Positions 371 to 64,000 of a DNA stretch of 64,000 nucleotides are shown here, piece by piece. Origin of the DNA: Actinotignum schaalii (lineage in GTDB: Bacteria; Actinomycetota; Actinomycetes; Actinomycetales; Actinomycetaceae); NCBI RefSeq assembly GCF_000724605.1, contig NZ_CP008802.1:1674001-1738000 (forward strand). Direction: 5' to 3'. Made by a program: the position numbers and the translations under genes. How positions within the stretch are numbered: the first letter of the stretch is position 1; every line of letters starts with the position of its first letter. The notes beneath the pieces are model-generated. The model was not told the origin of the DNA, searched no databases, and saw only the letters and a list, made by a program, of their open reading frames with translations.

Positions 371-709
371 AACATAACCTCCTTGGGGCTCTGAGTGTAC
401 CTGCCCGCTGGCGTTTTCGGCAGGGTACGGCCTGTGATGCAGGGCATGTACGACGACGCCTATGCAGCCACGCGCATAATACGCAGTGATGCGAGTTGGA
501 CGGGGAGCAAGTCTGGGGCGGTGAGTAAGTCCGGAGAGGTGGCGGTCGGGGTCAGCGCGTTGGGCCAGCGAGTCGCGGCGGCGAGGTAATGGCCCGGGCC
601 GGCGGTCAGGGCCAGAATGCACAACACCCGGGCGCTAATTCCGCGAAAGGAATCGGCGCCCGGGTGACTTGGCAATGAGCCCAGGGGACTGCTGATGAGG
701 GCGATGCCC
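371..709. other. Intergenic region between the CDF gene and the Gly/Tyr-rich membrane protein gene
   Basis: This 339-bp stretch is the 5' side of the CDF gene. It holds the ribosome-binding site at about 378-384, one exact TACGACGACGC motif copy (449-459) and a large hairpin (625-666). A minus-strand reading frame from about 626 to 460 has G/C-rich third positions and starts VLCILALTAGPGHYLAAAT. I could not assign it to a family and saw no convincing Shine-Dalgarno, so I do not call it a gene. Confidence 0.5.
625..666. terminator. Long G+C hairpin, possible terminator or attenuator
   Basis: CACCCGGGCGC at 625-635 pairs perfectly with GCGCCCGGGTG at 656-666, and an inner ATTCC/GGAAT pair closes a GCGAAA loop. 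No T-tract follows on either strand. It lies just downstream of the minus-strand gene ending at 710 and upstream of the CDF gene, so it could end the former or act in the leader of the latter. Confidence 0.5.
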
Positions 710-1936
710 CTACTGCATTGTGATATCTATTCCGCAGGAGTCCATGACGAGGATGAAGTGGAGCAGGTCGTTCATGAACTTAGGGTCTTCAATTTCATTG
801 CCGGCCGTGATGTCGCCCTTGCTGGCGCGTTCGATGACATCGATGAACTGGTCGGATAGCTTGCCCTGTGCGGCATTGCCGATGCAGGTGCCGGCATCAT
901 CGCGAGCGGGTTTACCGAATGCTGCGGTGAAGCTCGGGTCCTTGAGGAAGGTATCGAAGAGCGCTGCGATTTTTTCCGGCGGGTAGGTGTAGGTCAGCCC
1001 TTCTTTGCCGCCGTTGCCCGCTGAACCGCCCGAGTCACCGGAGGGTGCGGGGGTGGGTGTGGTGGGCGAATCAAGGATGGGTGCCTTGCTGGTTTCCGGA
1101 GCGGCCGTGGCATCCGGGGCGGCGGGTGCGCTGACCGAAGGAACCGAGCTGGGATCGGGCTGCGCATCATCACTGGCCTTATCCCGGTTGAGGAAGAAAA
1201 TAAGACCAACAACCAGCGCAATCAGCGCGATGATTCCCACGCCGATGCCAACAAACAGGCCGGTTTTGCTCTGCTTGGGCTGCTGGCCGTAGCCAGCCGG
1301 ATAACTCCCGCGCGGGCCGTTCGGGCCGCCGGGGCCATTCGGCCCACCTGCGCCGGGGTACTGATTGCCCGGGCCGCCCGGGTAGCCCGGGCCTCCATAT
1401 TGCCCGCCGGGATAAGCCGGGCCGCCGTACTGCCCGCCCTGGCCAGAACCGTATTGCGGGGCCTCACCCGGATAATTCCCCTGCTGCGGGTAGCCAGCTT
1501 GGCCGGGATACTGGGTGCCGGTGCCGGTGCCGGTGCCGGTGCCGGTCTGGCCAGGATACTGATTGCCTTGACCGGCCTGAGCGCCCGGATAGGTGGGGCC
1601 GCCGTAGTGCCCGGCTTGCCCGGGTTGCCCGGCTCCGTACTGCCCGGCCTGCCCGGCGGCGCCATACTGGCCCTGGCCGGGATAGGCGGCGGTAGGCGCA
1701 CCGTAGGCCTGGGTGGGGTAATCGCCCGAAGGTGAGGTGGGCGTGGAAAAAGCTTGGGTGGGTGCGCTGGTGGCTTCAGGTGCGCTGGCGGTACCGGGCG
1801 CATCGCCCGCGCCAGGAGTATAGCTGGCTTCGGGCGCGCTGCCCGCGCCGGGGGTGGTGTTCTCGGAGCCGTGCGGAGGGAAAGCTCGGGTGGGTTCGCC
1901 GCCCTGCGGCGAACGGATTGCGTCTTCTTCGCTCAC
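710..1936 (-). CDS. Single-pass membrane protein with Gly/Pro/Gln/Tyr-rich cytoplasmic region
   Basis: I place the start at GTG 1936 (MSEEDAIRSP...), preceded by TAGGA; this gives 408 residues. An upstream extension in frame looks non-coding. The first ~250 residues are low complexity, rich in G, Q, Y, P and T, with repeats such as QYPG and QYGG. One transmembrane helix (GLFVGIGVGIIALIALVVGL) comes next, then a Pro/Ser/Thr linker and a ~100-residue C-terminal domain containing two cysteines (GTCIGN, MDSCGID) that could form an exported disulfide. This architecture is common in actinobacterial envelope proteins of unknown role. The Gly/Tyr-rich region has internal repeats, including a run of GT dipeptides, that may vary in length between strains. 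I do not recognise a named family. Confidence 0.7.
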   Translation of the reverse strand: MSEEDAIRSPQGGEPTRAFPPHGSENTTPGAGSAPEASYTPGAGDAPGTASAPEATSAPTQAFSTPTSPSGDYPTQAYGAPTAAYPGQGQYGAAGQAGQYGAGQPGQAGHYGGPTYPGAQAGQGNQYPGQTGTGTGTGTGTQYPGQAGYPQQGNYPGEAPQYGSGQGGQYGGPAYPGGQYGGPGYPGGPGNQYPGAGGPNGPGGPNGPRGSYPAGYGQQPKQSKTGLFVGIGVGIIALIALVVGLIFFLNRDKASDDAQPDPSSVPSVSAPAAPDATAAPETSKAPILDSPTTPTPAPSGDSGGSAGNGGKEGLTYTYPPEKIAALFDTFLKDPSFTAAFGKPARDDAGTCIGNAAQGKLSDQFIDVIERASKGDITAGNEIEDPKFMNDLLHFILVMDSCGIDITMQ

Positions 1937-2268
1937 GATAAATCCTAACGATGCGCGGGAGCGGCGCCCGGCAATCCCACGCGCTAACCGCGTACGGTAA
2001 CCGGCGAAAACGCCCCCGATGTGACAGGTGGCTAGCCGCTTTCCGCGCTCCTTCGAATATGCCGGAGCGCCCGGATACACGAGCCAAGCCACATTCATTC
2101 AATCAGAGAGCGGCCGGGAGCGGCAAGCAAGTTTCGCGTTTGCCAAGCTCAGGGCCCTTCGGCCAGCAGAGAAACATCCGCTACTTCGCGCCCGCGCCCG
2201 CCCCACGCAGCTCGGCCCGCCGTGCCCGGCCCACGCTATTCCGCCGTGGCCGCTACGCCACGCGCATC
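1937..2268. other. Intergenic region, no recognisable feature
   Basis: About 330 bp between the CtpE-like ATPase and the Gly/Tyr-rich membrane protein gene, both on the minus strand. Apart from the TAGGA ribosome-binding sequence near 1945 I see no gene, strong hairpin or repeat. Reading frames here lack start signals and family resemblance. Confidence 0.4.
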
Positions 2269-5028
2269 TCAGCTCAATGCCGCATCCGCGCGCCGCTCCG
2301 CCATCGCCTTCTTGCGCAGCTCGGCCTGGGTGCGCTGCGCGGCCCGCTGCTCCGCACTTTGCCAGAGCCGAGCCGGCTCCCCGAAGCGTAGCCCCAAGAA
2401 CCACCACAGCGCCTCGATCAGTGCCGCGCCAACCGCACCCACCAGCGTACCCAGGGCCATCGCCCCGGAATTGGAGGAATCCAGCATGAATACACGCTGC
2501 GTGAGAGGCCAGAGGAAAATCACTCCGTAACCCACCAGCGGCAGCAAAATAAGAAGAATCTTCCACCACACATAGGGCCGGGCCACCACCACGAGCACCC
2601 ACGAGGAGGCAATAATCATCGTCAAGAGCGTCGCGGTGGACACCTGAGTCGCATACGCCGAACTAGCTGCGCCGTCGTACAACATGACGTAGGTAATAAA
2701 AGTCGCGATCCCCACGATCAGGCCCGCCGGGAAACCGAAACGCATGACGCGCTGCACGAAACCGGGGCGGGCGGCGTCGTTATTCGGCGGCAGCGAGAGG
2801 AGGAAGGCCGGGATGCCGATGGTGAACCAGCCGGTGATCGTCACGTGAATCGGCACGAAGGGATAGGGCAGCGCGAACAGCAGCACCGCGATGGCGAGCA
2901 CCGCCGAATACACCGTTTTGGTGAGGAAAAGCCGCGCCACGCGTTCGATATTTCCGACCACGCGCCGGCCTTCGCCCACCACATGCGGGAGGGACGCGAA
3001 TTTATCGTCGAGGAGCACAATTTTCGCGACTGAACGAGTGGCGGAGGTGCCTGACCCCATGCCGATGCCCAGGTCGGCGTCCTTGAGAGCGAGCACATCA
3101 TTGACGCCATCGCCCGTCATCGCGACAGTGTGTCCCGCCCCGCGCAGCGCCGCGACCATGGCGCGCTTCTGATCCGGGGTCACCCGCCCGAATACGGCAT
3201 TCTCGTTGATCGTTTCCGCGAAGCTCGCCTCCGGGATGGTGCGCGCGTCCACCGGAGTGCCCACATCGACGCCGAGCTGCGTGGTCACCGCCCCGACCGC
3301 CGCGGCATTATCGCCGGAGATGACTTTGACCGCCACGCCCTGCGAATCGAAATAGCGCAGAGTATCGGAGGCATCCGGGCGGATTTTTTGGTCGAGGAGA
3401 ATAAAAGCGAGCGGCTCGAGGTTACCCGGCGCGTTCGCGGCCGTGACTGGCGTATCGCTGCGGGCCAGGAGCAGCACGCGCTGGCCGGTGGCGGCAATGG
3501 CGGCGGCGCGCTCGCGGGCGACGGCGCCCGCCGAGCCATCCGCACTCGCCAAATCAAGAAGCACATCCGGGGCGCCCATGATCCAGTGCTGGCCATTGGC
3601 GAAACTCACCCCGGACCACTTCTTCGCCGAGGTGAACGGCTGGCGTTCGGTCACCTCCCACGGCTGGGCCGGCGCGCCGAGAGCTTCCTGGATGGCCTCC
3701 ATGGAGGAGTTCGGGGCCGGGTCGGCCGCGCCCAGCTGGGCCAGGGCTTCCCGGGCGGTGGCCTGAGCGCGCGCGGCGGAAGTGGCGGCGGCGTCGTGCT
3801 GTTCCCGCGCGGTGCCGGAACTGGAACCGCTGCAAGAACTCGCGCCGCCGGAAGCAGAACCGGAATCAGGACCGCAGCTCACAGCCGCGCCGGGCACCAA
3901 CTCGAGCCCCGCGAAACGCAGGGTATTTTCGGTGAGGGTGCCGGTTTTGTCCACGGCGACGGTGTCCACGCGCGCGAGGCCTTCGATGGCCGGCAGCTCG
4001 TTGACCAGCACTTTCAGGCGGCCGAGCCGGATCACACCCAGCGCGAAAGCGGTCGAGGTGATGAGTACCAGACCTTCGGGGATCATCGGCACCAGCGCGC
4101 CGGTAACCGAGAGCACGATGTCGCGCCAGTGCGCGCCGATGGCGGCCCAATCCAGGCCCACCACGCGGATCTGGCCCCAGATGGTCAGCAGCCCCACGGG
4201 CACGAGCACCCAGGTGATGGCTTTGAGGATGCGGTCGATCCCGTTTTGCAGCTGGGAATCGACGAGCGAGAATTTCGAGGCGGCGGAGGTGAGTTTCGCG
4301 GCGTAGGCGTCGGCGCCCACGCGGGTGGCGCGGTAGCTGCCCGAGCCGGAGGAGACGAAGGAGCCGGACATCATCGCGGCGCCGGGCTCCTTGTGGATGG
4401 AATCGGATTCGCCGGTGAGGAGCGATTCGTCCACCTCGAGGTAATCCGCTTCGGTGACGACGCCGTCCACCACGATCTGCTCGCCGGCGGCGACCACGAT
4501 AATATCGCCGAGCACCACCTCTTCACGCGCGATTTCGCGCACCTCGCCCTCGCGGCGCACCCGCGGATGCGCTTCGCCAATAACCGCCAGGGAATCAAGG
4601 GTGTGCTTGGCGCGCAGCTCCTGAATAATGCCGATAATCGAGTTCGCAATAATGAGCAGGCCGAAGGCGCTATTGATCCACGAACCGGTAAGAATCACGG
4701 CAATAAATAGCACGCCGAGCATGAAATTAATGCGGGTGAAAACGTTATCGCGCACAATCTGCGCGGCCGAGCGCCCCGAGCGATCCGGGAGGGTATTCGC
4801 CTTGCCCTCCGCGGCGAGCTGGGCGGCCTGCGCGGCGCTGAGCCCGCGGGCCGGGTCGCTTGCGGGCACGTGCTCGTTGCCGGTGGTGGGGTCGGTGGCG
4901 GGATCGGTCAGGGCGAGGGACTCGGGTTCCCGCTGCGCGGGTTTGCCTGCGGCGGGGGCCGGGGCGGTGGGCGGCGGGCCGGGCGCGGTCGAGTCAAAGT
5001 CCCGCTGCGCGGGTGCGGCGTCGTTCAT
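2269..5028 (-). CDS. ctpE: CtpE-like cation-transporting P-type ATPase
   Basis: This is a 919-residue P-type ATPase from the preferred start at 5028 (MNDAAPAQRDF...). A ~70-residue Pro/Ala-rich tail precedes the conserved start of the fold (GLSAAQAAQLAAEGKAN). The actuator loop has LLTGES, the phosphorylation site is DKTGTLTE, and the hinge has GDGVNDVLALKDADLGIGMG. The membrane segments NVFTRINFMLGVLF and FGLLIIANSIIGIIQELRAK closely resemble mycobacterial CtpE, which has been linked to Ca2+ uptake; substrate transfer to this protein is inference. There is no N-terminal metal-binding domain and no CPC motif, which argues against a copper or zinc pump. A Ser/Ala-rich insert follows the phosphorylation domain. 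No clear Shine-Dalgarno precedes the start, which diverges from the lipoprotein gene 75 bp away. Confidence 0.85.
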   Translation of the reverse strand: MNDAAPAQRDFDSTAPGPPPTAPAPAAGKPAQREPESLALTDPATDPTTGNEHVPASDPARGLSAAQAAQLAAEGKANTLPDRSGRSAAQIVRDNVFTRINFMLGVLFIAVILTGSWINSAFGLLIIANSIIGIIQELRAKHTLDSLAVIGEAHPRVRREGEVREIAREEVVLGDIIVVAAGEQIVVDGVVTEADYLEVDESLLTGESDSIHKEPGAAMMSGSFVSSGSGSYRATRVGADAYAAKLTSAASKFSLVDSQLQNGIDRILKAITWVLVPVGLLTIWGQIRVVGLDWAAIGAHWRDIVLSVTGALVPMIPEGLVLITSTAFALGVIRLGRLKVLVNELPAIEGLARVDTVAVDKTGTLTENTLRFAGLELVPGAAVSCGPDSGSASGGASSCSGSSSGTAREQHDAAATSAARAQATAREALAQLGAADPAPNSSMEAIQEALGAPAQPWEVTERQPFTSAKKWSGVSFANGQHWIMGAPDVLLDLASADGSAGAVARERAAAIAATGQRVLLLARSDTPVTAANAPGNLEPLAFILLDQKIRPDASDTLRYFDSQGVAVKVISGDNAAAVGAVTTQLGVDVGTPVDARTIPEASFAETINENAVFGRVTPDQKRAMVAALRGAGHTVAMTGDGVNDVLALKDADLGIGMGSGTSATRSVAKIVLLDDKFASLPHVVGEGRRVVGNIERVARLFLTKTVYSAVLAIAVLLFALPYPFVPIHVTITGWFTIGIPAFLLSLPPNNDAARPGFVQRVMRFGFPAGLIVGIATFITYVMLYDGAASSAYATQVSTATLLTMIIASSWVLVVVARPYVWWKILLILLPLVGYGVIFLWPLTQRVFMLDSSNSGAMALGTLVGAVGAALIEALWWFLGLRFGEPARLWQSAEQRAAQRTQAELRKKAMAERRADAALS

Positions 5029-5103: not shown

Positions 5104-5898
5104 ATGGCACGAAAAAACTTTTTCCGCAGCGTCGCGGGAATCTGCGCGGTTGCGGCCCTCGCTTCCTGTAGTAGCACGACGACGCCGCAGCAAGCAGCAA
5201 GCACCCCGCCACCGTCGGCCGGTTCGGCAAGCGCGACCCCAACGCCGGGCGTGGTGGGGTCATCAAGCAGTGCGGCGCCCTCGGCTGCGGCGGGTGCGCC
5301 CGGCGTGGCTGGCTCGGCCGGCGCAGAACCCGCATCGGGGGAGGTGATCATGGCGGAAGTTCTGCGCGCGGTGGATAACATCACGGAGTTCGAGGTCGGG
5401 GTGCTGCGCACCAATAACAGCTCTGGCCTGGATGATTGGGCTTCGCGACTCAGCGTCAATGAGCTGGCGCAGCGGTATGACGGGGATAAGGTGCTGGACT
5501 ACACCATCAACGGACAGCCTCCCAATAAGGCGAGCCTGGCGCCGCTTTCGAAGGATGATATGCGGTTCCTGATTCGCAGTGCCGATTACGGCGCCGAAAA
5601 TGAGCGCGGGGTTGTTTCGGGGGAACTGCGTCAAGGTACGAAACTTCCTTCACTGGGCACCCAGCTGATGGATACCTGCGCGCAGGATGGCGACTGGGTC
5701 ATTCTCGCGGGCAGTGTGGGATATAACCGGCGCACCGGGGTGATCGAGCACGTGGATTACATGGTGGAAAGCCCGGACTTCACTCAGGAAGTGCGCGGGC
5801 CGGACGGGCGAACGCGGGAGGAAAATATGGCCTGCCGCACCGTCTGGGACTTCCGCTCCGTGAACGGCTCGGTGATCGATAAGCCGCCGGCGAGTTAG
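5104..5898 (+). CDS. Putative secreted lipoprotein
   Basis: A 264-residue protein with a lipoprotein signal: positively charged start MARKNFFR, hydrophobic SVAGICAVAALA and lipobox LASC, so Cys-22 would be lipid-modified. A Ser/Thr/Pro/Ala linker of about 60 residues follows, then a globular domain of about 180 residues with conserved-looking WASRLSVNEL and CAQDGDWVILAG. Two cysteines (DTCAQ and MACRT) could form a disulfide. It resembles actinobacterial lipoproteins of unknown function; I do not assign one. The stop overlaps the stop of the convergent SorC-type regulator by a few bases, so the two messages must terminate within each other. The linker carries one copy of the ACGACGACGC core motif (5176-5185). 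Confidence 0.75.
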   Translation: MARKNFFRSVAGICAVAALASCSSTTTPQQAASTPPPSAGSASATPTPGVVGSSSSAAPSAAAGAPGVAGSAGAEPASGEVIMAEVLRAVDNITEFEVGVLRTNNSSGLDDWASRLSVNELAQRYDGDKVLDYTINGQPPNKASLAPLSKDDMRFLIRSADYGAENERGVVSGELRQGTKLPSLGTQLMDTCAQDGDWVILAGSVGYNRRTGVIEHVDYMVESPDFTQEVRGPDGRTREENMACRTVWDFRSVNGSVIDKPPAS

Positions 5899-8037: not shown

Positions 8038-8038
8038 G

Positions 8039-8695
8039 ATGCGGCCACAACTGCAAATTGCCCTCGATACCTTAACTATGGAAGACGCGCTGGCGCCCCT
8101 GCAAAAAGCGCACTCCCAGATTGACATTATCGAGTGTGGCACCATCCTGATTATCAATGAAGGCCTACGGGCAGTGCGAGAAATCCGCGCCCTGTTTCCC
8201 GAAAAACCGATTCTGGCCGATGTGCGCATCGCGGAAGCCGGTTCCCTCATTGCCCGGAATTGCTTCGAGGCGGGAGCGTCGTGGGTGTCCTGCGTGGCGG
8301 GTGCATCGCTAACCACTATTGAACAGGTGGTCAAGGTAGCCGAAGGTTTCCACGGCGAGGTGCAAGTGGAACTGGCGGAGGAACACTACACCCTGGAAAA
8401 AGCCCGGAAATGGGCGGATATTGGGGTGAAACACGCCATCGTGAAGCGCTCGCGTGACCTGGAAGCCGCGGGGAAACTCACCTGGGGACCTCATGACTTC
8501 GAACGCATCGAGCAGTTGAAGGAACTCGGGTTCACGGTGACCATCACCGGAGGGATGAGCGTGGCTGACCTCGACGTATTCTCGGGCCAACACCCGGATA
8601 TCATCATCGCAGGTCGAACCATCACCCAGGCCGAAGATCCCCTGGCGGCCGCCACCGCCCTGCAAACCAAGATAAGGCAGGTGTGGAACGCGTGA
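8039..8695 (+). CDS. UlaD-like 3-keto-L-gulonate-6-phosphate decarboxylase (HUMPS family) with altered active site
   Basis: 218 residues, full length for the orotidine-phosphate/hexulose-phosphate (HUMPS) family. UlaD in this family decarboxylates 3-keto-L-gulonate 6-phosphate to L-xylulose 5-phosphate. Conserved features include E32 (ECGT), D61, the TITGG phosphate loop and IIAGR. The signature that reads D-x-K-x-x-D in E. coli UlaD (Lys64, Asp67, as I recall) is here DVRIAE: the lysine is Arg63 and the aspartate Glu66. The usual His of HRSRD is Lys (KRSRD). These are conservative but catalytic positions, so either the chemistry or the substrate may differ. Start one base after the preceding stop; its end overlaps the next gene's GTG. 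Confidence 0.8.
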   Translation: MRPQLQIALDTLTMEDALAPLQKAHSQIDIIECGTILIINEGLRAVREIRALFPEKPILADVRIAEAGSLIARNCFEAGASWVSCVAGASLTTIEQVVKVAEGFHGEVQVELAEEHYTLEKARKWADIGVKHAIVKRSRDLEAAGKLTWGPHDFERIEQLKELGFTVTITGGMSVADLDVFSGQHPDIIIAGRTITQAEDPLAAATALQTKIRQVWNA

Positions 8696-9567
8696 CGCAG
8701 CGAAAAGAATCCACTGTCACCCTGGGAATCTACGAAAAAGCTTTGCCCAGCACCGATGACTGGGATGTATTTTTCCGCAACGCCAGGGAAGCTGGGTTTT
8801 CCTTCGTGGATCTTTCCATCGATGAAAGCGCCGAGCGTATGGAGCGCCTCGGCTGGGATTACCGGCAACGGCAGAAAGTGCGGGAAGCCGCAAGGCAGGC
8901 CCACATCCGTTTAGGGGGCATCTGTCTTTCGGCGCATCGGGCAGTTATGCCCGGTTCACAAGATCCGCAGATGCGCCAGCGAGCCCTTGATCTGTACCGG
9001 AAAGCGATTGATTTCTGTGTGGACATGGGTATTCCGGTCGTGCAAGTGGCGGGTTACTACGCCTACTACGAGCCCCACGACCCCGATGCGGCGCAACGCT
9101 ACCTGGAAACTCTTGCCCTCGCCTTACCCTACGCGGAACAACGCGGCATTATCCTCGCTATCGAAAATGTGGATGGGAACGACCTCGCAGCTATACCTGA
9201 CGTGGTCGAAGTTCTCGAACAGCTGCCCTCGCCCTGGCTGCGCATCTACCCCGATATCGGCAACATTGCCGAACACGGCGGGGATGCAACTAGCGAATTG
9301 GCAGCGGGGGAGGGCCGTATGGTCGCTTTGCACGTCAAAGACGTACTTCCCGGACAACCTCGACGGATACCGCTGGGCGAGGGATGCGTCGATTTTCCGG
9401 CAGCTTTCCGAGAACTCGCGCGTCAGAACTGGAGTGGCAGAATCATGCTCGAAATGTGGAACGACGACGCTCCGGACTCAATCGCGAAGTGCATCGCCGC
9501 ACGCGAATATCTTGAGGTGCTCCTGAGGCAATCAAACATTATCGTCGTTCCCCCAGAAAGGACGTAA
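8692..9567 (+). CDS. ulaE: UlaE-like L-xylulose/L-ribulose-5-phosphate 3-epimerase
   Basis: 291 residues from GTG 8692, which overlaps the previous stop (GTGA); GTG 8683 is an alternative. It is a TIM-barrel sugar-phosphate epimerase of the xylose-isomerase-like fold. It begins with the typical LGIYEKALP and keeps the four metal/catalytic residues E158, D188 (YPDIGN), H214 (LHVKD) and E254 (LEMW), in register with E. coli UlaE. In the ascorbate pathway this enzyme converts L-xylulose 5-phosphate to L-ribulose 5-phosphate. The C-terminal segment WNDDAPD carries the ACGACGACGC core motif at DNA level (9461-9470). All catalytic residues look intact, in contrast to its UlaD-like neighbour. Confidence 0.88.
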   Translation: MTQRKESTVTLGIYEKALPSTDDWDVFFRNAREAGFSFVDLSIDESAERMERLGWDYRQRQKVREAARQAHIRLGGICLSAHRAVMPGSQDPQMRQRALDLYRKAIDFCVDMGIPVVQVAGYYAYYEPHDPDAAQRYLETLALALPYAEQRGIILAIENVDGNDLAAIPDVVEVLEQLPSPWLRIYPDIGNIAEHGGDATSELAAGEGRMVALHVKDVLPGQPRRIPLGEGCVDFPAAFRELARQNWSGRIMLEMWNDDAPDSIAKCIAAREYLEVLLRQSNIIVVPPERT

Positions 9568-12765: not shown

Positions 12766-13626
12766 TTAATAAATAGCGACCGGGCCGCAGGGGCCGGGGA
12801 TCACGTCGATCTCCGCGTCGAAAATCGCGGAGAGGCGTTCCGGGGTCATAATATCGGCCGGGGTGCCGGCGTCCATGACCACGCCCTCGCGCATGGCAAT
12901 AATGCGATCCGAGTAGCGTGCCGCGAAATTAATATCGTGGATAACCAGCACGATGGTGCGGTGGAGCTCGTCCGCGGCCTGGCGCAGGTGGCGCATCATC
13001 TGCACCGAATGCGAAATATCCAGGTTATTGAGCGGCTCGTCCAGCAGCACGCAATCGGTTTCCTGAGTGAGGACCATCGCCACGTAGGCGCGCTGGCGCT
13101 GCCCACCGGATAGCTCATCCAGGTAGCGCCCTTCCAGCTCGGTCAGCCCCAAGAAATCAATGTAGCGGGAAATGATCTTTTCATCCTCGGCGGTCAGGCG
13201 CCCATTCGAATACGGGAAGCGCCCGAAGCCGACCAACTGACGCACCGTCAGGCGGGTAACGAAGTGATTTTCCTGGCGCAGAATCGCGAGAATCTTGGCA
13301 AGATCGGCGGATTTCGTCGTCGTCACATCAAGACCCGCCACCGCAATCGCGCCCGCGTCCATACGCATAAGCCGCCCGATCATCGTGAGCAGCGTGGACT
13401 TTCCCGCGCCATTCGGACCCACCAGGGCCGTCACCCCGCCGTGCGGAATATCCAAGGTGACCGGGCCGATCCGCACCTCCGAACTGTAATCGCGGCGCGT
13501 CCCTTCCATACGGATCATCGGATCCGCGCAGCTCAGATCGGCCGCGCGTAGATGCGGGGAGACCACCGGCGGTACCGGCGCGGGAACCTCAAGATGCGTG
13601 CCTGCTGTTTTCTTGCGGTGGCGCAT
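12766..13626 (-). CDS. Siderophore ABC transporter ATP-binding protein (FecE/FatE-like)
   Basis: 286 residues with Walker A GPNGAGKSTLL, signature LSGGQRQRAYVA and Walker B CVLLDEPLNN, then the switch His in VIHDINFA. About 45 residues precede the ATPase core. The motifs and the neighbouring two FecCD permeases and binding protein place it in the iron-siderophore importer class, closest in flavour to Fat/Ycl petrobactin-type systems. It would energise uptake of ferric siderophore from the cytoplasmic face. Its start overlaps the preceding permease stop (TAATG). It is the last gene of the operon and converges on the sugar operon. Confidence 0.9.
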   Translation of the reverse strand: MRHRKKTAGTHLEVPAPVPPVVSPHLRAADLSCADPMIRMEGTRRDYSSEVRIGPVTLDIPHGGVTALVGPNGAGKSTLLTMIGRLMRMDAGAIAVAGLDVTTTKSADLAKILAILRQENHFVTRLTVRQLVGFGRFPYSNGRLTAEDEKIISRYIDFLGLTELEGRYLDELSGGQRQRAYVAMVLTQETDCVLLDEPLNNLDISHSVQMMRHLRQAADELHRTIVLVIHDINFAARYSDRIIAMREGVVMDAGTPADIMTPERLSAIFDAEIDVIPGPCGPVAIY

Positions 13627-14768
13627 TACAACCGCCCCTTTCTCAATACGACGACGAGGAACGTCAGGCCGCCCACCAGCTCAATAATGATGGAGACCAC
13701 ACCCTCCGCCGAGAAAATATTTTTCATCACGAAGAAGCCACCCATGAGCACCGCGTAACCAATCACGGCGGCCATGGGGAAGAGGAAACGGTGATCGTAG
13801 GTATCCGCCGCCTGGTAGGTGAGGGTCGCCACGAGGAAACCGAAGAAGGTCATCGGCCCCACCAGCGCCGTGGACACCGAGACCAGCACCGCGATAAGCG
13901 TGAGCGAAATAAGCAGCATCCGCAGGTGATTGACGCCCAGTGACACCGCCACATCCCGCCCCAGCGCAATCGCGTTGAGGGAGCGGGAAATAAGGAGGAG
14001 CGCGAGCCCGGCCCCGAGCGCCAGCGGCAGCGCCGCCACGAACACATCCGAGCGCGCATTCGCGATGGTGCCGAACATGCGCGCGGACAGCACATCGAAT
14101 TCGGAGGGGGTGAGCATGCGCTGCATAAACGCGGACAGCGAGCCCAAGCCGGTACCGATAATAATGCCGATCAGCAGCATAATATGCAGGCTCCCGAGCT
14201 TACCGCGTAGCAGCCAGCCGTACAGTGCCAGCGCGCACGCCACCATAATCGCCACCTGGATGAGGAAGGCCCGCACCCCGGTAAAGGCCACGAACCCGGC
14301 CACCCCGAAGAAGAAAATTGTGGAGGTGTGAATCACCGAATACAGCGACTCGAACCCCATAATCGACGGCGTGAGAATCCGGTTGGTGGTCACCGTCTGG
14401 AACGCAAGGGTGGCCAGCGACTGGCAAAAGGCCACCAGCAGAATCGAAAACACCGCTTCGGCTCGCATCCGGGTAATAATCCAGAAGCCCTCGCTTCCCA
14501 CCGTCACCGGAATATTCCACACAAAATAGAGCGCGGTGAAAGCCACGCCGAGCAGCGCGATGCCGATGAGCAGCAGCCAGTAGCGCCGCCGCGCCCGCGG
14601 GGTCGCGAAGGCACCCGCGTGGCGGGGTGCGGTGTTGCTCGGCGCGGTGCTGTTCGTTGCGGTGCCGCGGCTTGCGGCGCCGGTTGCGGCAGTGCGGCTT
14701 GCGGTGCCGGTTGCGGCAGTGCCGCGGTCGCGCGGCGTTTCGGGAGATTGTGGTACGACGACGCTCAT
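13626..14768 (-). CDS. FecCD-type siderophore permease, second subunit
   Basis: 380 residues. The first ~65 form a Thr/Ala/Ser/Arg-rich tail made of short imperfect repeats (TAATG, RGTAT), encoded by repetitive GCGGTTGCGGCAGTGC-like DNA. About nine transmembrane helices then carry FecCD hallmarks, including TPSIMGFESLYS and ALGRDVAVSLGVNHLRM. It pairs with the permease encoded directly upstream to form the membrane channel. Translation is coupled: the ATG overlaps the previous stop (ATGA). The fifth codon region (MSVVVPQ) contains an exact GCGTCGTCGTA motif copy. The tail is not expected for the family and may have expanded by slippage. Confidence 0.9.
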   Translation of the reverse strand: MSVVVPQSPETPRDRGTAATGTASRTAATGAASRGTATNSTAPSNTAPRHAGAFATPRARRRYWLLLIGIALLGVAFTALYFVWNIPVTVGSEGFWIITRMRAEAVFSILLVAFCQSLATLAFQTVTTNRILTPSIMGFESLYSVIHTSTIFFFGVAGFVAFTGVRAFLIQVAIMVACALALYGWLLRGKLGSLHIMLLIGIIIGTGLGSLSAFMQRMLTPSEFDVLSARMFGTIANARSDVFVAALPLALGAGLALLLISRSLNAIALGRDVAVSLGVNHLRMLLISLTLIAVLVSVSTALVGPMTFFGFLVATLTYQAADTYDHRFLFPMAAVIGYAVLMGGFFVMKNIFSAEGVVSIIIELVGGLTFLVVVLRKGRL

Positions 14769-17103: not shown

Positions 17104-17139
17104 CCGGCAGGCCGCGCGGTAGCGCGGCGGCGTCGTCGT
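17104..17139 (+). repeat. Dispersed 36-bp intergenic repeat, copy 1
   Basis: This segment is identical over 36 bp to the reverse complement of 40528-40563. It contains the hairpin GCCGCGC-GGTA-GCGCGGC followed by GGCGTCGTCGT, the core of the window-wide motif. Both copies are intergenic. Confidence 0.85.
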
Positions 17140-18992: not shown

Positions 18993-19335
18993 GCGGCTCC
19001 TTCTTCTACGACTTCTCAGAACGCCTGATTGAGGTTTCTAACGGATCTATTCTAGAGTCCCGCGCGCGGATCGTGGATGCGTGTTCCGTTCGCTTCCGTG
19101 GTGTGCGTGCCGACTTGACGCCCGGGCCACCGCCATGGCGCCGGGCTCCGGTGCTGAGAGTGGGAAGAACGACGACGCCGCCACTGCCGCTCCTGCCCCT
19201 TCTGCCGCGGCTGCTGGTGGGGCTGCGCCACCCGCCCCGCGTCGTCGTAAGAAGTGTGCTGCGCGTTATTCCTACGGCGTCACGTTTCTGCAATACTGTG
19301 AGGTGAAGAACCACCATCCAACGAGGAGCCGCGCG
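18993..19335. other. Intergenic region upstream of the HTH-ImmA-PIN module
   Basis: About 340 bp between divergently transcribed genes. It contains one motif core (19169-19178) and one exact GCGTCGTCGTA (19239-19249), the latter preceded by half of the hairpin sequence found intact at 21102 and 21909. GAGGAG at 19323-19328 is the ribosome-binding site of the HTH gene. An upstream in-frame extension of that gene reads as low-complexity Ala/Pro and is probably not translated. Confidence 0.5.
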
Positions 19336-21935: not shown

Positions 21936-21951
21936 GCGTCGTCGTCGTCGT

Positions 21952-40473: not shown

Positions 40474-40527
40474 GCTTCTCCTCTGGTTGCGAACGCCGCG
40501 AAGTGCGGCACATATGCCGTATTTTTT

Positions 40528-45171: not shown

Positions 45172-45290
45172 GCGTACTCCTTGTGCTGGGGATTGTCCTC
45201 CTAGGTTACGGCACCGCGCGCCGCGCGTCATCTTAGGTACGACGGCGCAGCTAGGGCGCCCGCCCCACGCGGCCCCGCCGGGGCCTTCGG

Positions 45291-50651: not shown

Positions 50652-51647
50652 TTAGCTAATCCGCACCGCCGTGCGCCCGTAACGCTGGCCGGCCAACAGC
50701 TCGCGCCCGGCTGTGGGAACCTCCGCCAGCTCAATCACGTGAGTGAGGGAATCGAGAACGCCGGTATCCACGTGTTCGGCCAGCAGCTTCCAGGCGCGCA
50801 GACGCAGCTCGCGCGGGGCCCGCACCGAATCCACCCCGGCCAGGGTAACGCCTCGCAAAATAAAGGGCAGCACCGTGGTGTGCAGCGCGGTTCCGCCGGC
50901 CAGCCCGCAGGCGGCCACCGTCCCGCCCCAGCGGGTTTGCGCCAGCAGATTCGCGAGCACCTGCCCGCCCACGGTATCCACCCCGCCCGCGAAGCGGCTC
51001 TTCTGCAGCGGCCGCGCGGAAGGTTCCTCGAATTCCGAGCGTTCAAGCACCTCGCTGGCCCCGAGCCCGCGCAGGAAATCCCCGAAGCGCTCCGCCCGCC
51101 CGGTCAGTGCCACCGGCTCATAGCCGAGCCGTGCGAGGAGATGGAGCGCGATACTTCCCACCCCGCCGCTCGCCCCGGTTACCACAACCGGGCCGTCCTT
51201 CACCGCGTGATCACTAAGCGCCAGCACGCACAGCGCCGCCGTATACCCGGCCGTTCCCAAGGCCGCCGCCTGCGCGGCGCTCAACACTTCCGGCACCGGC
51301 ACGCAGGCATCTCCGGGCACCAGCAGCTGCGGGGTGTAGCCCCCGTGCCGGAATTCACCCAGGCCCGCCCCGTTCACACTGACCAGCTGCCCCGGGCGCA
51401 CCGGGCTGTCCGGGCCGGCCTCTCGCACCGTCCCCACCGCGTCAATACCGGGAATAAGCGGGCTGACCCTAGCCACACCCCGGTCGCCTTTCAAGCACAG
51501 CGCATCTTTGTAATTGAGGGAGGACCAGGAAATATCGAGGAGCACATCGCCTTCCCCGAACGGGGCTGCATTCGCTCCACCGGCCTGAGTATCGAAAGTG
51601 AGCGTGGGCGCGGCTGCGTCGTCGTACCGCACAAAAATAGTAGCCAT
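50652..51647 (-). CDS. YhdH/AcuI-type MDR family oxidoreductase
   Basis: 331 residues. LDISWSSLNYKDALCLKG and PLIPGIDAVGTV mark the YhdH/AcuI acrylyl-CoA-reductase-like branch of the medium-chain dehydrogenase/reductases; the NADP fold has VVTGASGGVGSIAL. Zinc ligands are absent, as in quinone-oxidoreductase relatives. Its N-terminus MATIFVRYDDAAAP contains an exact copy of the 11-base motif, inserted where relatives vary. Likely NADPH-dependent reduction of an activated double bond; the substrate is unknown. Confidence 0.88.
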   Translation of the reverse strand: MATIFVRYDDAAAPTLTFDTQAGGANAAPFGEGDVLLDISWSSLNYKDALCLKGDRGVARVSPLIPGIDAVGTVREAGPDSPVRPGQLVSVNGAGLGEFRHGGYTPQLLVPGDACVPVPEVLSAAQAAALGTAGYTAALCVLALSDHAVKDGPVVVTGASGGVGSIALHLLARLGYEPVALTGRAERFGDFLRGLGASEVLERSEFEEPSARPLQKSRFAGGVDTVGGQVLANLLAQTRWGGTVAACGLAGGTALHTTVLPFILRGVTLAGVDSVRAPRELRLRAWKLLAEHVDTGVLDSLTHVIELAEVPTAGRELLAGQRYGRTAVRIS

Positions 51648-51806: not shown

Positions 51807-53021
51807 ATGATCAACATTAAAGAGGCGGTGGATTCTTTCACCTCCTGGCAAGAAGAGCTTTATGTCCACCTGCATCAGCATCCCGAACTTTCTATGCAGG
51901 AAAAAGAAACGTGTGACACTATCGACGCGGAACTGACGCGCCTCGGGTACGCAACGCAGCGGATCGGCGGCGGCGTCGTCGGTGTGCTGGAAAACGGGGA
52001 GGGGCCCGCGGTGCTCTTCCGCGCTGATATTGACGGGCTCCCGGTCAAGGAAGCAACCGGGCTCGAGTACGCATCCACGCAGACGCGCACGGACGCGGAC
52101 GGTAACGAAGTCCCGGCCATGCACGCCTGCGGCCACGATTTCCATATTTCTTGCGCCCTGGGCGCGGCCCGTATTTTCGCGGAAAACCGCGAGGCCTGGG
52201 CCGGCACCTATATCGCGCTGTTCCAGCCCGGGGAAGAAACCGCGGCCGGGGCGCGCTCCATGGTGGCCGACGGCCTGGTCGATAAGATCCCGGCGCCGGA
52301 TGTGGCTCTCGGGCAGCACGTGCTAGCCGGGCCGATGCGCGCGGGGCAGGTCGGCACCCACGCCGGGGCGATTCTATCCACCGGTGCCTCCGTTAAGGTG
52401 ACGCTGCACGGGAAGGGGTCACACGGCTCCATGCCGCATCTGAGCATCGACCCGGTGGTGCTGGCCGCCGCCGTGGTGACCCGGCTCCAGAGCGTGGTGG
52501 CGCGCGAAATTAATCCCTTCAAGATGGCGGTGCTGACCGTGGGCTCCATCCACGCCGGAAGCAAATCAAATATTATTCCGGACACGGCCACCCTGCTTAT
52601 TAATATTCGCGCGTATGACATGGACGTGCGCGAACAGCTCCTCGATGGCATTAAGCGCACTGTCACGGCCGAATGCGAAGCGGCTCGCGCCCCGCAGGCG
52701 CCGGAATTTGAGATCTACGATTCCTACCCGCTTACTAATAACGACGACGCAACTACCGCCAAGGTCACCCAGGCATTCCTGGCACACTTCGGGGAAGAGC
52801 GCGTCATGGATTGCGGCGAAGTATCGGCTTCCGAAGATTTCAGCGTGATCCCGGACGCTTTCGGGATTCCCTACACCTACTGGGGCTTCGGTGGATTCGC
52901 GGAAGGCGCGCCCACCTACCCCAATCACAACCCCGCCTTCGGGCCGGTTCTCCAACCCACCCTCGCCACCGGCACCGAAGCCGCGGCCGTTGCCGCGCTC
53001 GCCTGGCTGGCGCGGGACTAG
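51807..53021 (+). CDS. M20-family amidohydrolase (IAA-amino-acid hydrolase / hippurate hydrolase-like)
   Basis: 404 residues. The N-terminal HQHPELSMQE, metal-site MHACGHDFH, QPGEE and C-terminal GEVSASEDFS are the set seen in M20D carboxypeptidase-like amidohydrolases, with a dimerisation domain between (GKGSHGSMPHLSIDP). It should cleave an N-acyl amino acid or a similar amide in the cytoplasm. GGAAAGG precedes the ATG. An MFS transporter follows after 36 bp, and the two are probably co-transcribed for uptake or export of the amide or its product. Confidence 0.9.
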   Translation: MINIKEAVDSFTSWQEELYVHLHQHPELSMQEKETCDTIDAELTRLGYATQRIGGGVVGVLENGEGPAVLFRADIDGLPVKEATGLEYASTQTRTDADGNEVPAMHACGHDFHISCALGAARIFAENREAWAGTYIALFQPGEETAAGARSMVADGLVDKIPAPDVALGQHVLAGPMRAGQVGTHAGAILSTGASVKVTLHGKGSHGSMPHLSIDPVVLAAAVVTRLQSVVAREINPFKMAVLTVGSIHAGSKSNIIPDTATLLINIRAYDMDVREQLLDGIKRTVTAECEAARAPQAPEFEIYDSYPLTNNDDATTAKVTQAFLAHFGEERVMDCGEVSASEDFSVIPDAFGIPYTYWGFGGFAEGAPTYPNHNPAFGPVLQPTLATGTEAAAVAALAWLARD

Positions 53022-58618: not shown

Positions 58619-61600
58619 TTACTTGCGCCGGTGGCGTTCCAGGGCGACGCCGCCGCCCAGGCACAGGGCACACAAAGCGATGACGCCCATGATCTTCGCC
58701 AGGGTGCTCAGCTTAATGCTCCGATCCCAGCCGCTTGCTGAAGAATCCGCATTCGCACCGGCGGCCGCCTGGTTACCCTGGCCCGTCGCGCCATTGGGCA
58801 TGCCAACGAAGGCGGAACCTGAGGGCGTGCCCGCACCGGGCGTGGCACTCGCCGAAGGGGTAGCGGAGGGGGCAGCTGCTTTCCCGGCCGCCGGCCCACC
58901 GGCCTTCGCCGGAGCGGGGGAGAGGGGGCGCGGCGCCCCGCCGCCACCGGCCTGCGGTGCGCCAATTACCTGGGTGCCCGTGAGGGTGGCGCCGCCACCG
59001 GGGCCGAGCGGTGCGTTGCCGCTCGGCGGTAGCACCTTCGCCCCGGGATTCTCCGGAACTGGAGCGGGGGCGGGCGGCCCGGCCGGAGTTGGGGGCTTCT
59101 GCCCGGGATTATTTCCTATGCCGGGTGTACCCGGCTGTGGATTTGGTTTTTGTGTGCTAATGCCCCCTGGGGTTCCAGGCGTGGCCGACGGTTGCGGCGC
59201 GGGAGTGGCGCCCGGCGTGGGCGCGCCACCCGGATTCGGATCCGCGGAGGGATGATCCGCACCGCCCGGTTCGGGAGCGGTGGGATCGCCGGGGATGCTC
59301 AGGGTGCCCTGCTCGTAACCGGCGATCGTCTCATCCCCGACCAAGAACACTAGGCGGCCCGCCCGGTTGGCCCCGCTCGCGCCGGAAGCTTCCGGCGCGG
59401 TTGCGGCGTCGTCGTACCACACCCGAAGTACGTACACGCCCGGCTGCGTGAAGGCCCAACCCGCGTGTTGGTGTGTGGGATCGGGCAGGTCAAGGGAGGT
59501 GCGCGAGGCGTCGAAGAGCCGATCCACGTTCCCGAAACCGCTCAGCGCGTAGGCGTGATACTGTGCGCCACTTGGAATCGACTCCGGCTCCACGTGGAAA
59601 CGCGTGGGCTTGCGGTAGCTCTCCGTGGACCATCCGGGCCAAATATGCGAACGATCCCAGTTCTGGGGCAGCTGGTAGAGCCGCTCACCCTCTGCGCCGA
59701 GGAAATCAAAAGCCGCGCCCTTCGTCCGCGGGGATTTCGCCGAATCGGGCACCGCCAGCGCCACCGTGCTCACATCACGCTGCACCGAGGTGGTGGCGTG
59801 CTCGAGGGTATCGTCCTTGAGGGTAACGCCCGGGCCGCCCTCACCCGGCACCGCCTGCAGATCCACGTGGCCGCGCCGCAAAATGGTGCGCGACGGGGCG
59901 GGCTTCGGTGCGGGAGCTGGTGCGGGAGCACTAGGCGACACGGAAGGCGCCGGCGCCGGCGCAGGCGGATTCGGTCCCGGGTTCGGGTTCGGCCCAGGGT
60001 TCGGCGCAGGATTCGGGCCGGGATTCGGCGCAGGATTCGGCCCTGGCCCCGGTGCCGGTTCAGGCTGCGGCACGGGGGCCGGCTGGGTGCCGGTACCAAT
60101 CGCGGGAGCCGCGGCGAGCCGCCCGGAATAGCTTTGCGGGGCGCTCAGATCCATGGTGCCGAAACGCACGTCCGCCGCCGCGCTCATATTCACTTCCGGA
60201 TGTGGGTCGATGCTGAGTTTGAGATGGTAGCCCTCGCACCAGGAATCGCCCTGGGTCACGGCGGCCACGCCGCGCGAATCCGTCACCATATTCACTTCGC
60301 AATCCGGGTACTTATCCTCCGGTTTCGCGTAGTAGCCGCCGTGCACGTACGCGCGTACCTTCGGATCCGCAAAAGCAACCGAGGTGGTCACGTTTCCGGT
60401 GGCCGTCTTTTCGGTGCGCACCGTGTAATCGAAGGACGACGGCGTATACTCCCCGCCCTCCATGGCCGGCGCCGGGTCCTGCGAATGAGGCTCGGGCAGT
60501 TGCGCGGCGCTCTCCGAGGTGCCGGCCTCGGCATCGCCAAAGGTGTAGGAGACCGGGGCGGAAATCCAGCGGGCCCCGGTGGTGGCCTGAGTGCCGGGAG
60601 CCGAATTGGCTGCGCCGTCGGCCTTGGGCGCGCCGGCCGCGCCCTGCGTTCCCGGGGTGGCGGGCACGAAAACCGCCTGGAAATTCGAGGCGCCAGAGCC
60701 GATCATCTCCGCCCAGCGCGCCTTGCCCTTCTCCACCGGGACCTCGGCCAGGAAGTAACCATCCAGGAAGAACTGCACCTTCCCCGCCACCGTTTCCGAA
60801 CCGGCATCGAAACGTAGCTCGGTGAGCTGGTCATCCGCGTCATGCTCGCGGCCCGCATGCGGGGCGAGAGAGAAACGGTAACCGGAGGTATCCCCGGTGG
60901 GGGCAGCGTTGAACGCGGTAGCCAGATCGGGGCCCGCTTCCTTGGCGGGGCGGGTGCCGCCCACCTGCCATACAAACGGAATCTCCTGCGAAGCAATAAT
61001 CTTGCCGTCCACCCCGCGCGCGATGGCGCGATAGGTCAGGGTGTAGCGCCCCGGCTTGGTGAAAGCGGTCTCGTTGTGGGTGTGGCTGCCGGGCACCAGG
61101 TAGGAGACCCGCCGCCCCGTTTCGTGGCTGGAGAATAGCGGGAGGTAGAGGTCCATATTGGTCATGAAGGCTTCCATGCGCCCCGGGCCGTCGAACTTGG
61201 TCAGCTCCAGCGCGAAGGTGCCGTTGCGGAATTGCTCCACGGGAATGGCGGCATCCGCACCGAAACCGGCCCAGATGGGGAAGGGGCCGCTGGGCATACC
61301 GGGCGCGGAATACCAGCGCTCGGCCACCTTGCGCAGATGCCCGTACGCCTCGTTATCCGGGGGCAGGAAAATGTACTGCTGCCCGCCCTGATTCGAGCCG
61401 GAGCGCGCGTAGCCGCGCCCCACCCAATTGACGGTCTTCTCCAGCGGATACAGCTCGTCATAAGCTTCGTTCTTCAGCACGAACGTACCGTTTTCCCAAA
61501 AAACCTTGGGGGCATCAACGTGCGCCGTCGTTGTGACAATTTTTCCGTCATCCGGGGCGGCCGCGGCGGCCGGAGCTATCCCGGCGGTGAGTGCGGCGGC

Positions 61601-61630
61601 GGCCAGGGCCGCGAGGAGGCGTCGTGCCAT
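58619..61630 (-). CDS. Large actinobacterial surface-anchored repeat protein (TIGR03769-like)
   Basis: 1003 residues. A signal peptide (MARRLLAALAAAALTAGIAP...AAAA) is followed by a first domain (~30-230) ending HTHNETAFTKPGRYT. A middle region comes next, then Pro-rich linkers with repeated NPGPNPAP, and a second domain of the actinobacterial surface-anchored type. The second domain runs from GHVDLQAVPGEG to THQHAGWAFTQPGVY and ends RLVFLVGDE. A long Pro/Ala linker leads to one membrane helix and RHRRK. There is no LPxTG motif. Relatives often accompany metal-import ABC systems with anchored repeats. The repeated H-x-H...P-G-x-Y element could bind metal. It is divergent from a second such protein across a Fur-like box. 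Confidence 0.85.
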   Translation of the reverse strand: MARRLLAALAAAALTAGIAPAAAAAPDDGKIVTTTAHVDAPKVFWENGTFVLKNEAYDELYPLEKTVNWVGRGYARSGSNQGGQQYIFLPPDNEAYGHLRKVAERWYSAPGMPSGPFPIWAGFGADAAIPVEQFRNGTFALELTKFDGPGRMEAFMTNMDLYLPLFSSHETGRRVSYLVPGSHTHNETAFTKPGRYTLTYRAIARGVDGKIIASQEIPFVWQVGGTRPAKEAGPDLATAFNAAPTGDTSGYRFSLAPHAGREHDADDQLTELRFDAGSETVAGKVQFFLDGYFLAEVPVEKGKARWAEMIGSGASNFQAVFVPATPGTQGAAGAPKADGAANSAPGTQATTGARWISAPVSYTFGDAEAGTSESAAQLPEPHSQDPAPAMEGGEYTPSSFDYTVRTEKTATGNVTTSVAFADPKVRAYVHGGYYAKPEDKYPDCEVNMVTDSRGVAAVTQGDSWCEGYHLKLSIDPHPEVNMSAAADVRFGTMDLSAPQSYSGRLAAAPAIGTGTQPAPVPQPEPAPGPGPNPAPNPGPNPAPNPGPNPNPGPNPPAPAPAPSVSPSAPAPAPAPKPAPSRTILRRGHVDLQAVPGEGGPGVTLKDDTLEHATTSVQRDVSTVALAVPDSAKSPRTKGAAFDFLGAEGERLYQLPQNWDRSHIWPGWSTESYRKPTRFHVEPESIPSGAQYHAYALSGFGNVDRLFDASRTSLDLPDPTHQHAGWAFTQPGVYVLRVWYDDAATAPEASGASGANRAGRLVFLVGDETIAGYEQGTLSIPGDPTAPEPGGADHPSADPNPGGAPTPGATPAPQPSATPGTPGGISTQKPNPQPGTPGIGNNPGQKPPTPAGPPAPAPVPENPGAKVLPPSGNAPLGPGGGATLTGTQVIGAPQAGGGGAPRPLSPAPAKAGGPAAGKAAAPSATPSASATPGAGTPSGSAFVGMPNGATGQGNQAAAGANADSSASGWDRSIKLSTLAKIMGVIALCALCLGGGVALERHRRK

Positions 61631-63596: not shown

Positions 63597-63688
63597 CCTA
63601 TGATGGGGGCAGCGTCCGCTTCGGCGCCTGTGGCGGCGGCCGGGCGCAGCACACCCAATCAAATACGAGTGAAAAGCGCGGGATACTT

Positions 63689-64000
63689 ATGAAGATTTCA
63701 ATTCTGGTGGGTAGTTTGCGGCGCGGTTCCTACGCGCGCAAAATCGCGAGCGAAGTGGCCGGCTATTTCCCCGAAGGGTACCAGGTGGAGATTGTGGAGA
63801 TCGGTCACCTGCCGCTCTATAACTTCGATTACGACGACGCAGCTGTGACGGACGTACCCCTGCCGGAAAGCTACACCAGCTTCCGGGAAACCATTAAGGC
63901 CAGCGATGGCATCCTCTTTGTCACGCCGGAAAATAACCGCACCGTGCCGGCCTGCCTGAAGAATGCCGTAGATATCGGCTCCAAGCCGAATAGCGATGTG
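63689..64000 (+). CDS. NADPH-dependent FMN reductase family protein, 5' part
   Basis: The first 104 codons are visible; the gene leaves the window. MKISILVGSLRRGSYARK is the flavin-phosphate loop of the NADPH-dependent FMN reductase (azoreductase/chromate-reductase-like) flavodoxin fold, and ILFVTPENNRTVPACLKNAVD is the second family signature. The usual TPEYN is TPENN. The loop LYNFDYDDAAVTDVP contains an exact copy of the 11-base motif at a position that varies in relatives. Confidence 0.88.
   Translation, partial: MKISILVGSLRRGSYARKIASEVAGYFPEGYQVEIVEIGHLPLYNFDYDDAAVTDVPLPESYTSFRETIKASDGILFVTPENNRTVPACLKNAVDIGSKPNSDV

Follow-up and report, generated by a model that had tools for sequence, protein, structure and literature searches.

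A dispersed and conserved DNA word in Actinotignum schaalii, with a possible role as a DNA-uptake-like self signal

Sequence-tagged uptake is the classic example of bacterial discrimination between self and foreign DNA, and it is known mainly from the Neisseriaceae and the Pasteurellaceae. The uptake signal sequence (USS) of the latter family has A+T-rich flanks, and Chi, KOPS and matS are further examples of short, over-represented, lineage-specific words. The DNA uptake sequence (DUS) of the Neisseriaceae is described, in the part of the account available (PMC3630211), as a short asymmetric word, highly over-represented in and between genes, terminator-associated and with lineage forms that share an invariant core. 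The available parts of other papers describe the cyanobacterial HIP1 as an 8-bp CG-rich word of high density that is clade-wide with lineage exceptions (PMC4390886), and the actinobacterium Micrococcus luteus as needing its tad genes for transformation and having comEA and comEC homologs (PMC4322843, PMC6370729). Here we describe a word, the 11-mer GCGTCGTCGTA with its 10-mer core GCGTCGTCGT, that a sequence-only reading had picked out in a 64-kb stretch of the A. schaalii chromosome (positions 1,674,001–1,738,000 of a single 2,159,306-base contig; hereafter the window). One protein of the window is 97 and 96% identical to two A. schaalii records, the next record being at 69%. The word is in great excess genome-wide, and its conservation points to selection on the DNA itself.

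In form the A. schaalii word resembles the Neisseriaceae DUS: it is short, asymmetric, over-represented in and between genes, present at some probable terminators and possessed of a shared core. The differences are that its host is an actinobacterium and not a Gram-negative organism, that the full word has fewer copies, and that copies at the probable terminators stand singly after a hairpin and do not form inverted pairs. The receptor of the Neisseria DUS is ComP, a minor pilin, whereas a receptor in A. schaalii is hypothetical. The USS is likewise a dispersed core word with an extended footprint, although its sequence and lineage are unrelated. HIP1 (GCGATCGC) is a palindrome with ties to methyltransferases, while the present word is asymmetric with an A+T flank on one side; unlike Chi, KOPS and matS, it has no strand or regional bias. 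The Tad/Flp-pilus transformation of M. luteus has a counterpart of sorts in A. schaalii, where comEA, comEC and two tad-like loci are also found, but the phrase ‘uptake sequence’ has no match in the available text of the M. luteus paper, and competence in Actinotignum is a prediction.

All nine 11-mers and sixteen 10-mer cores reported by the sequence-only reading are present in the window where it had placed them. Genome-wide, the 11-mer has 159 copies (74 on the plus and 85 on the minus strand) in 2.16 Mb, against 6 of the reversed word, and the window, with 9 copies in 64 kb, has ∼1.9 times the average density. Dinucleotide shuffles of the window give an expectation of 0.03 11-mers and 0.18 10-mers. 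Other statistics for the source genome (G000; further G-codes denote relatives, and L-codes sampled stretches) were drawn from 464 or 864 kb of its 2,159 kb, the former for the codon-aware null and the Markov tests and the latter (40% of the genome) for the counts of merged sites, strand and spacing. Genes were called with our own codon-model scripts, not taken from the reference annotation. An order-5 Markov model expects 11.7 10-mers where 75 are observed, and related words are in similar excess (GCGGCGTCGTCG, 51 against 2.0; GCGTCGTCGTAC, 27 against 0.65; GCTGCGCCGTCG, 23 against 0.9). The 39 11-mers in this sample divide into 18 intergenic copies and 21 in genes, the coding copies reading YDDA (9), TTT (6), VVV (3) or RRR (3). 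A codon-aware null model had been named at the outset as the test that could refute the motif. Synonymous-codon shuffles give 1.55 coding 11-mers (0.11 sense, 1.44 antisense) against the 21 observed (6 sense, 15 antisense), and the motif is still in excess. The over-representation goes beyond codon bias, as in a DUS.

The word is a member of the set GCG[T/C/G]CGTCGT, and can be written as the degenerate word GCGNCGTCGT with the core CGNCGTCG; between genes the degenerate word has 77 copies where an order-2 Markov model of G000 expects 0.7. When single positions are substituted, the fourth tolerates T (75 copies), G (75) and C (51) but hardly A (7), part of the G count being the overlapping register GCGGCGTCGTCGT. 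The first and last positions are softer, and single changes at the other seven, hard positions are met in 0–5 copies each. The forms GCGCCGTCGT and GCGGCGTCGT are likewise enriched. Neither the word nor its core is palindromic, and the palindromic variant is absent from the 110 intergenic core copies in G000 (1.3 expected). The 20 bp upstream are G+C-rich and the region from +10 to +20 is A+T-rich, both between genes and in coding copies, whichever orientation the latter have; comparison of the flanks found no strong common sequence outside the footprint.

Conservation was measured against two relatives that are 95% (G004) and 92% (G002) identical to the window. At the nine fixed core positions of 37 window sites, overlapping registers included, 2 of 279 bases differ in G004 and 2 of 225 in G002, where class-matched flanks lead one to expect 14.3 and 19.1; for the 10-mer alone the figures are 2 of 148 and 3 of 118 (9.8 and 10.4 expected). 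Third codon positions under the core show no change at all (0/65 and 0/53), as against 59/710 and 77/567 in the flanks. A looser word was followed over the 188 of 864 kb that were aligned with G004, whose stretches were chosen by presumed collinearity. Here 5 of 216 third codon positions differ (22.7 expected) and 5 of 276 intergenic positions (15.9 expected), with 1 of 211 first positions (3.4 expected) and 0 of 158 second positions (1.6 expected), these comparisons being Fisher-tested. The word CGTCGTCG has the third lowest relative divergence among 615 frequent 8-mers. The T form, with 25 aligned sites, and the C form, with 23, show few changes from −3 to about +13/+16, a conserved footprint of ∼17–20 bp for these two main forms, with edges less clear in the looser pooled set; the footprint supports the general proposal, made by the sequence-only reading, of a protein-binding site. 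As change is suppressed both at third codon positions and in intergenic copies, the word itself is, to judge by these alignments, conserved by selection on the DNA and not only on the protein, and because it is conserved it is functional at the DNA level.

Copies are dispersed over both strands and occur in any reading frame. There are 299 merged sites in the larger sample (151 plus, 148 minus), or ∼750 per genome by extrapolation, and 94 of them are intergenic, yet intergenic DNA makes up only 136 of the 864 kb, so that their density is ∼2.4 times that of genes. Spacing is near random (coefficient of variation 0.92 against 0.98 ± 0.05), even spacing not being clear. Density ranges from 0.15 to 0.8 per kb over 41 sampled stretches and partly follows G+C content (r = 0.48), without any hot region. 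Twenty-two neighbouring pairs lie <150 bp apart, 11 in the same and 11 in opposite orientation.

Among the relatives, the 11-mer has 90, 127, 114 and 152 copies in four congeners and 11 in a fifth, G005. Only this genus has the exact 12-mer GCGTCGTCGTAC in abundance, with 54–105 copies in five of its genomes, 2 in G005 and 0–12 in the other 145 Actinomycetaceae genomes drawn. Against synonymous and intergenic nulls, the core CGNCGTCG is enriched in G000, G005, G006, G041, G035 (pooled with L047) and G036, by 2.2–6.0-fold in genes and 7.5–12.6-fold between them, and also in G030, G098, G127, G083 and G062 (genes 1.9–6.8-fold; 3–10 intergenic copies against 0.2–1.4). It is not enriched in G016, G092, G034, G147 or G076 (genes 0–1.1-fold, intergenic 0), and is about twofold in G007, in five other Actinomycetaceae loci and in a 72-locus pool of other actinobacteria, similar to the control word used for relatives, GCTGCTGC. 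A second control, CGACNGCG, was set aside as a poor one, since among its four forms there is one whose reverse complement is a form of the motif; the control is itself raised 1.7–3.3-fold in four of five motif-rich genomes. The ratio to the reversed word exceeds 2 in 20 of 50 genomes (G007 included) and is ≤1.25 in the other 30, with genus g32 divided 3 to 7 between the two groups. The intergenic palindromic form, each place being counted twice, has 0 copies in G000, 4 against 0.4 in G041 and 12 against 0.4 in G035. G005 retains an excess of TCGTCGTA(C) (TCGTCGTAC, 14 against 1.6) without the GCG side (GCGTCGTCGT, 1 against 1.2). This pattern resembles lineage dialects on a shared core, as in the DUS, the differences being clear between G000 and G041/G035 and weaker for G005.

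The copies in the window, with two variants, are as follows.

449–459, minus strand: 11-mer GCGTCGTCGTA, intergenic by our gene calls; identical in G004
5176–5185, minus strand: 10-mer core GCGTCGTCGT, intergenic between divergent genes, with GCG just before it
9461–9470, minus strand: 10-mer core, antisense within gene 8683–9567 (plus strand); NDDA
14754–14764, minus strand: 11-mer at the extreme start of the FecCD permease gene 13626–14768 (minus strand), M-SVVV-P; identical in G004, G002 and G003
17130–17139, plus strand: 10-mer core, intergenic, one base past the hairpin 17111–17128 with a 7-bp stem that includes the first two bases of an overlapping form at 17127
19169–19178, minus strand: 10-mer core, intergenic between divergent genes; G002 differs at the first base
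19239–19249, plus strand: 11-mer, intergenic, behind a weak G+C-rich stem (score 6.5)
21936–21945, plus strand: 10-mer core in terminator-tail position behind the 13-bp stem 21908–21936, running on as (CGT)n; some CGT units missing in G004 and G002
31149–31159, minus strand: 11-mer, sense within the DUF2079 gene 30633–32339 (minus strand), GVVVP; stretch unconserved in G041/G005, fourth core base G in G004
37480–37489, plus strand: 10-mer core, antisense within gene 35304–37733 (minus strand), HDDA; fourth base G in G002 and G003
40527–40537, minus strand: 11-mer, intergenic, adjoining the hairpin 40539–40556 with a 7-bp stem; kept in G004, L021 and L022
45050–45059, plus strand: variant GCGGCGTCGT, intergenic; identical in three relatives though the flanks differ
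45239–45248, minus strand: variant AGCT-GCGCCGTCGT-ACC, intergenic; three relatives share all ten core bases
48732–48742, minus strand: 11-mer, antisense close to the 3′ end of gene 45999–48827 (plus strand), YDDA; identical in G004, G002 and G003
51616–51626, plus strand: 11-mer, antisense, residues 8–11 of the zinc dehydrogenase gene 50652–51647 (minus strand), YDDA; tenth base differs in G004, G002 and G003
52741–52750, minus strand: 10-mer core, antisense within gene 51807–53021 (plus strand), NDDA; identical in G004, G002 and G003
59406–59416, plus strand: 11-mer, antisense within gene 58619–61630 (minus strand), YDDA; identical in G004 and G002
63830–63840, minus strand: 11-mer, antisense within a gene starting at 63689 (plus strand), YDDA; identical in G004 and G002

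Among the window copies of the 10-mer, those at 31150 and 37480 have a change in the fourth base, that at 19169 in the first and that at 51616 in the last, and 21936 shows loss of CGT units. The YDDA readings (at 48733, 51616, 59406 and 63831) and VVVP readings (14755, 31150) reported earlier were borne out; NDDA at 9461 and 52741 and HDDA at 37480 are additional. The accompanying statement that coding copies always lie in linkers, termini or variable loops held for part of them: three are near protein ends (residues 2–5, 8–11 and 912–915 of 943) and two are in gaps or unlike stretches relative to homologs, the remaining coding copies having no relative that covers them.

The GCGCCGTCGT form tends to occur as (T)AGCT-GCGCCGTCGT-ACC (window 45239, L010 9698–9766, L013 2848–4854) and also in short local arrays, with a 34-bp period in L010; it is perhaps a second sub-form of the signal. 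Other over-represented words in the window and L001–L020 are CAGGCTTACC (14 against 0.8 expected) and GATACCGATGGTGAC-type words (12–21 copies), the latter perhaps reflecting DTDGDG protein repeats.

Several explanations other than uptake have to be weighed. That the word is an artefact of codon or dinucleotide bias (acidic DDA runs in a genome of 62% G+C) is scarcely credible. The word CGNCGTCGTAC does exceed its reversed control in genus g22 and in G007 (74% G+C) as well (96 against 28 in G026, 123 against 18 in G007), and the control GCTGCTGC is itself about twofold in excess in some sets, but for G000 the artefact is excluded because the excess is found both against synonymous shuffles and in intergenic sequence. 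A spreading mini-repeat inserted in frame, as the sequence-only reading had suggested, or a tolerated product of trinucleotide slippage, is very improbable. It would account for the extra CGT units that trail the copy at 21936 and are missing in relatives, and a few local repeats of longer units do carry the word (L010, L013). However, none of the 58 copies aligned fully with G004 faces an empty site (52 have an identical core, 4 have substitutions and 2 partial indels; the other 241 of 299 sites, unaligned or partial, were excluded), and a spreading element is therefore disfavoured. The absence of a strong shared sequence outside the footprint, the enrichment of the GCGCCGTCGT and GCGGCGTCGT forms and the suppression of substitutions argue in the same direction. 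A recombination or segregation signal like Chi, KOPS or matS (a segregation signal was also among the earlier suggestions) would be a short, over-represented, asymmetric and lineage-specific word too; we regard it as improbable because replichore skew is lacking in the 40% of the genome sampled (29 against 40 ± 9.5 in shuffles), and hot regions are absent and the word is enriched between genes besides.

A role in transcription, either as the tail of an intrinsic terminator (a hairpin followed by GCGTCGTCGT in place of a T tract) or as an RNA pause or processing site, has more in its favour but is still unlikely. The earlier remark that several intergenic copies follow G+C-rich hairpins proved correct statistically. 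Of 64 intergenic sites, 36% have a stem of score ≥7 flush upstream, with its 3′ arm ending anywhere from the base just before the word to the word's fourth base. The same holds for 12% of 400 intergenic positions taken at random (tested as 23/64 and 48/400, counts back-derived from the rounded fractions), for 15% when the upstream sequence is shuffled and for 11% when the downstream side is examined instead; for coding copies the figure is 24%, against 13% and 16%. Strong stems occur at 10 of the 93 intergenic sites used, from a total of 94, with 2 on the downstream side as a control. Of these ten strongest stems, nine follow a gene in sense orientation and one is undetermined; 52 sites have that setting, whereas none of the 39 sites in the opposite orientation has such a stem (p = 0.009). 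This places 9 of the 93 sites in the setting of an intrinsic terminator. Furthermore, in co-directional gaps 23 sites run with the genes and 7 against them. Nevertheless, density in gaps of ≤600 bp is much alike whether these are divergent (1.31 per kb), convergent (1.05) or co-directional (1.13), genes hold most copies (157 of 221 sites), 104 of them antisense and 53 sense, and the conserved third positions within genes are left unexplained. We read the strong-stem copies as probable terminators whose tail took up the word, most copies being without such a setting. The main rival is a genome-wide binding or modification site of some other DNA-acting system, e.g. a nucleoid protein, an orphan methyltransferase with a HIP1-like repair bias, or a replication or repair factor; the site would persist through its use or through being continually remade by repair. 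This is a serious possibility, though on the whole we consider it somewhat unlikely. An excess of ∼0.9 core per kb in G000, the conservation, the use of all frames and the patchiness among lineages would fit any such signal, and for HIP1 a model in which the word is a by-product of mismatch repair gives over-representation without selection for function (in the available part of PMC4390886). Against it, HIP1 is palindromic and the present word is not, and a simple methylation site would not be expected to have a footprint that is asymmetric and A+T-rich on its 3′ side.

We tentatively prefer a DNA-uptake-sequence-like self-DNA signal, a reading that we place a little short of evenly balanced. 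Of the options raised by the sequence-only reading it fits best with a word that is dispersed, equal on the two strands, enriched between genes, found in all reading frames, selected at the DNA level and represented by shared-core forms in relatives. The sequence GCGNCGTCGT, with core CGNCGTCG, would be a genome-wide, lineage-specific recognition word; a receptor on the cell surface, part of the competence machinery (a Tad-type pilin, ComEA or a partner), would prefer DNA that carries the word, cells would thereby take up DNA of their own kind, and copies would build up because tagged stretches were more often imported and recombined. A. schaalii encodes ComEA with SLBB and HHH_3 domains, a ComEC of 926 aa with a Lactamase_B (metallo-beta-lactamase) domain, whose gene adjoins that for DNA polymerase III delta, and two tad-like loci with T2SSE and T2SSF genes; small pilin-like frames beside these loci have no Pfam match. 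In its available part, the genome paper of A. schaalii describes two tad clusters, and no mention of competence or transformation was found there (PMC5720513). Possession of such a machine, although shared with DUS hosts, is not discriminating. Suggestive differences do exist: G005, of the same genus and with 43 motif copies against 230–288, has a ComEC of 615 aa without Lactamase_B and one weak T2SSF match against three, and a ComEC frame of >700 aa is found in 18 of 20 high-motif and 9 of 30 low-motif genomes (G142, with no comEC match, was excluded, and for G044 the longer of two matches was used, which works against the association). ComEC frames in the Actinomycetaceae genomes compared are ∼500–930 aa long (one is 1184), most being 500–620 or >730 aa, and one short protein (G005, L161) is without the metallo-beta-lactamase domain that the A. 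schaalii protein carries.

A number of observations weigh against an uptake signal. The full motif is sparser, at ∼0.35 per kb, than the Neisseriaceae DUS, for which the available part of PMC3630211 gives 2245–3603 per genome. Inverted pairs are not in excess among close pairs, inverted-pair terminators being common but not defining for the DUS, and copies with one base changed at any of the seven hard positions are scarcely in excess, though decay of a tag would leave some. The intergenic count of GCGNCGTCGT is also somewhat raised in the pool of other actinobacteria (10 against 2.0). Of the genomes tested, motif-rich or not, 46 of 47 have comEC and 40 of 41 have T2SSF; the only one in which comEC had no match is G142, a draft in 360 contigs that is rich in the motif (34 against 0), and motif-rich genomes of genus g32 carry only one T2SSF match. 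The link with ComEC length is post hoc and confounded by kinship (by genus, 7/8 against 4/11, p = 0.059), its 700-aa cut has values close on either side (686 and 707), and G127 is motif-rich with a ComEC of 527 aa. A literature search in which subscription papers were not covered gave no data on uptake or transformation for Actinotignum. As the presence of comEC and T2SSF does not separate motif-rich from motif-poor genomes, the function is an inference: that a protein binds the word, that this protein is the uptake receptor and that the cells are competent.

De novo words of two relatives turned out to be other things. In G005 the candidate is a 15-bp tandem array of AACCACGTTCGCAAC (L111 3716–3848), broken by a run of N. 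In G041 it is a separate word, CGATAATTCCG, with 96 copies genome-wide (47 plus, 49 minus; control 0); among the matches listed, 30 of 36 forward copies on contig C4 crowd into 1.108–1.203 Mb, and 15 of 22 exact copies in 1.226–1.306 Mb are reverse. This region of C4 (∼1.10–1.31 Mb, L115–L118) may carry a terminus-region signal; the congener G006 has 6 copies, and across the 101 genomes searched none but G041 exceeds 7. G006 itself has ∼85 copies of words that overlap into a ∼29-bp repeat (GGAAATACCTCCGCGCGTGCGGAGAAGAG) in 80 kb (L169–L172), most likely a very long CRISPR array.

The wider proposal is that, in Actinotignum and several related genera of the Actinomycetaceae, natural transformation relies on a self-DNA tag that has genus-level dialects on the core CGNCGTCG and is read by a Tad-pilus/ComEA-type machine; this would be the first uptake sequence of a Gram-positive phylum. 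We advance it with slightly more reserve than the uptake-like signal in A. schaalii. The same literature search, limited to papers outside subscription, found no uptake sequence of Actinobacteria and only one paper, an irrelevant one, for the degenerate word, and did not find the selected word in print. Were the proposal true, the tag of the Actinomycetaceae would have arisen independently and with a different uptake machine, natural competence would be predicted in little-studied bacteria of the urinary tract, and the family would offer a ready test of tag–receptor co-evolution. Even under another function, a selected word of 8–10 bp at hundreds of places would be a handle for finding the protein that binds it.

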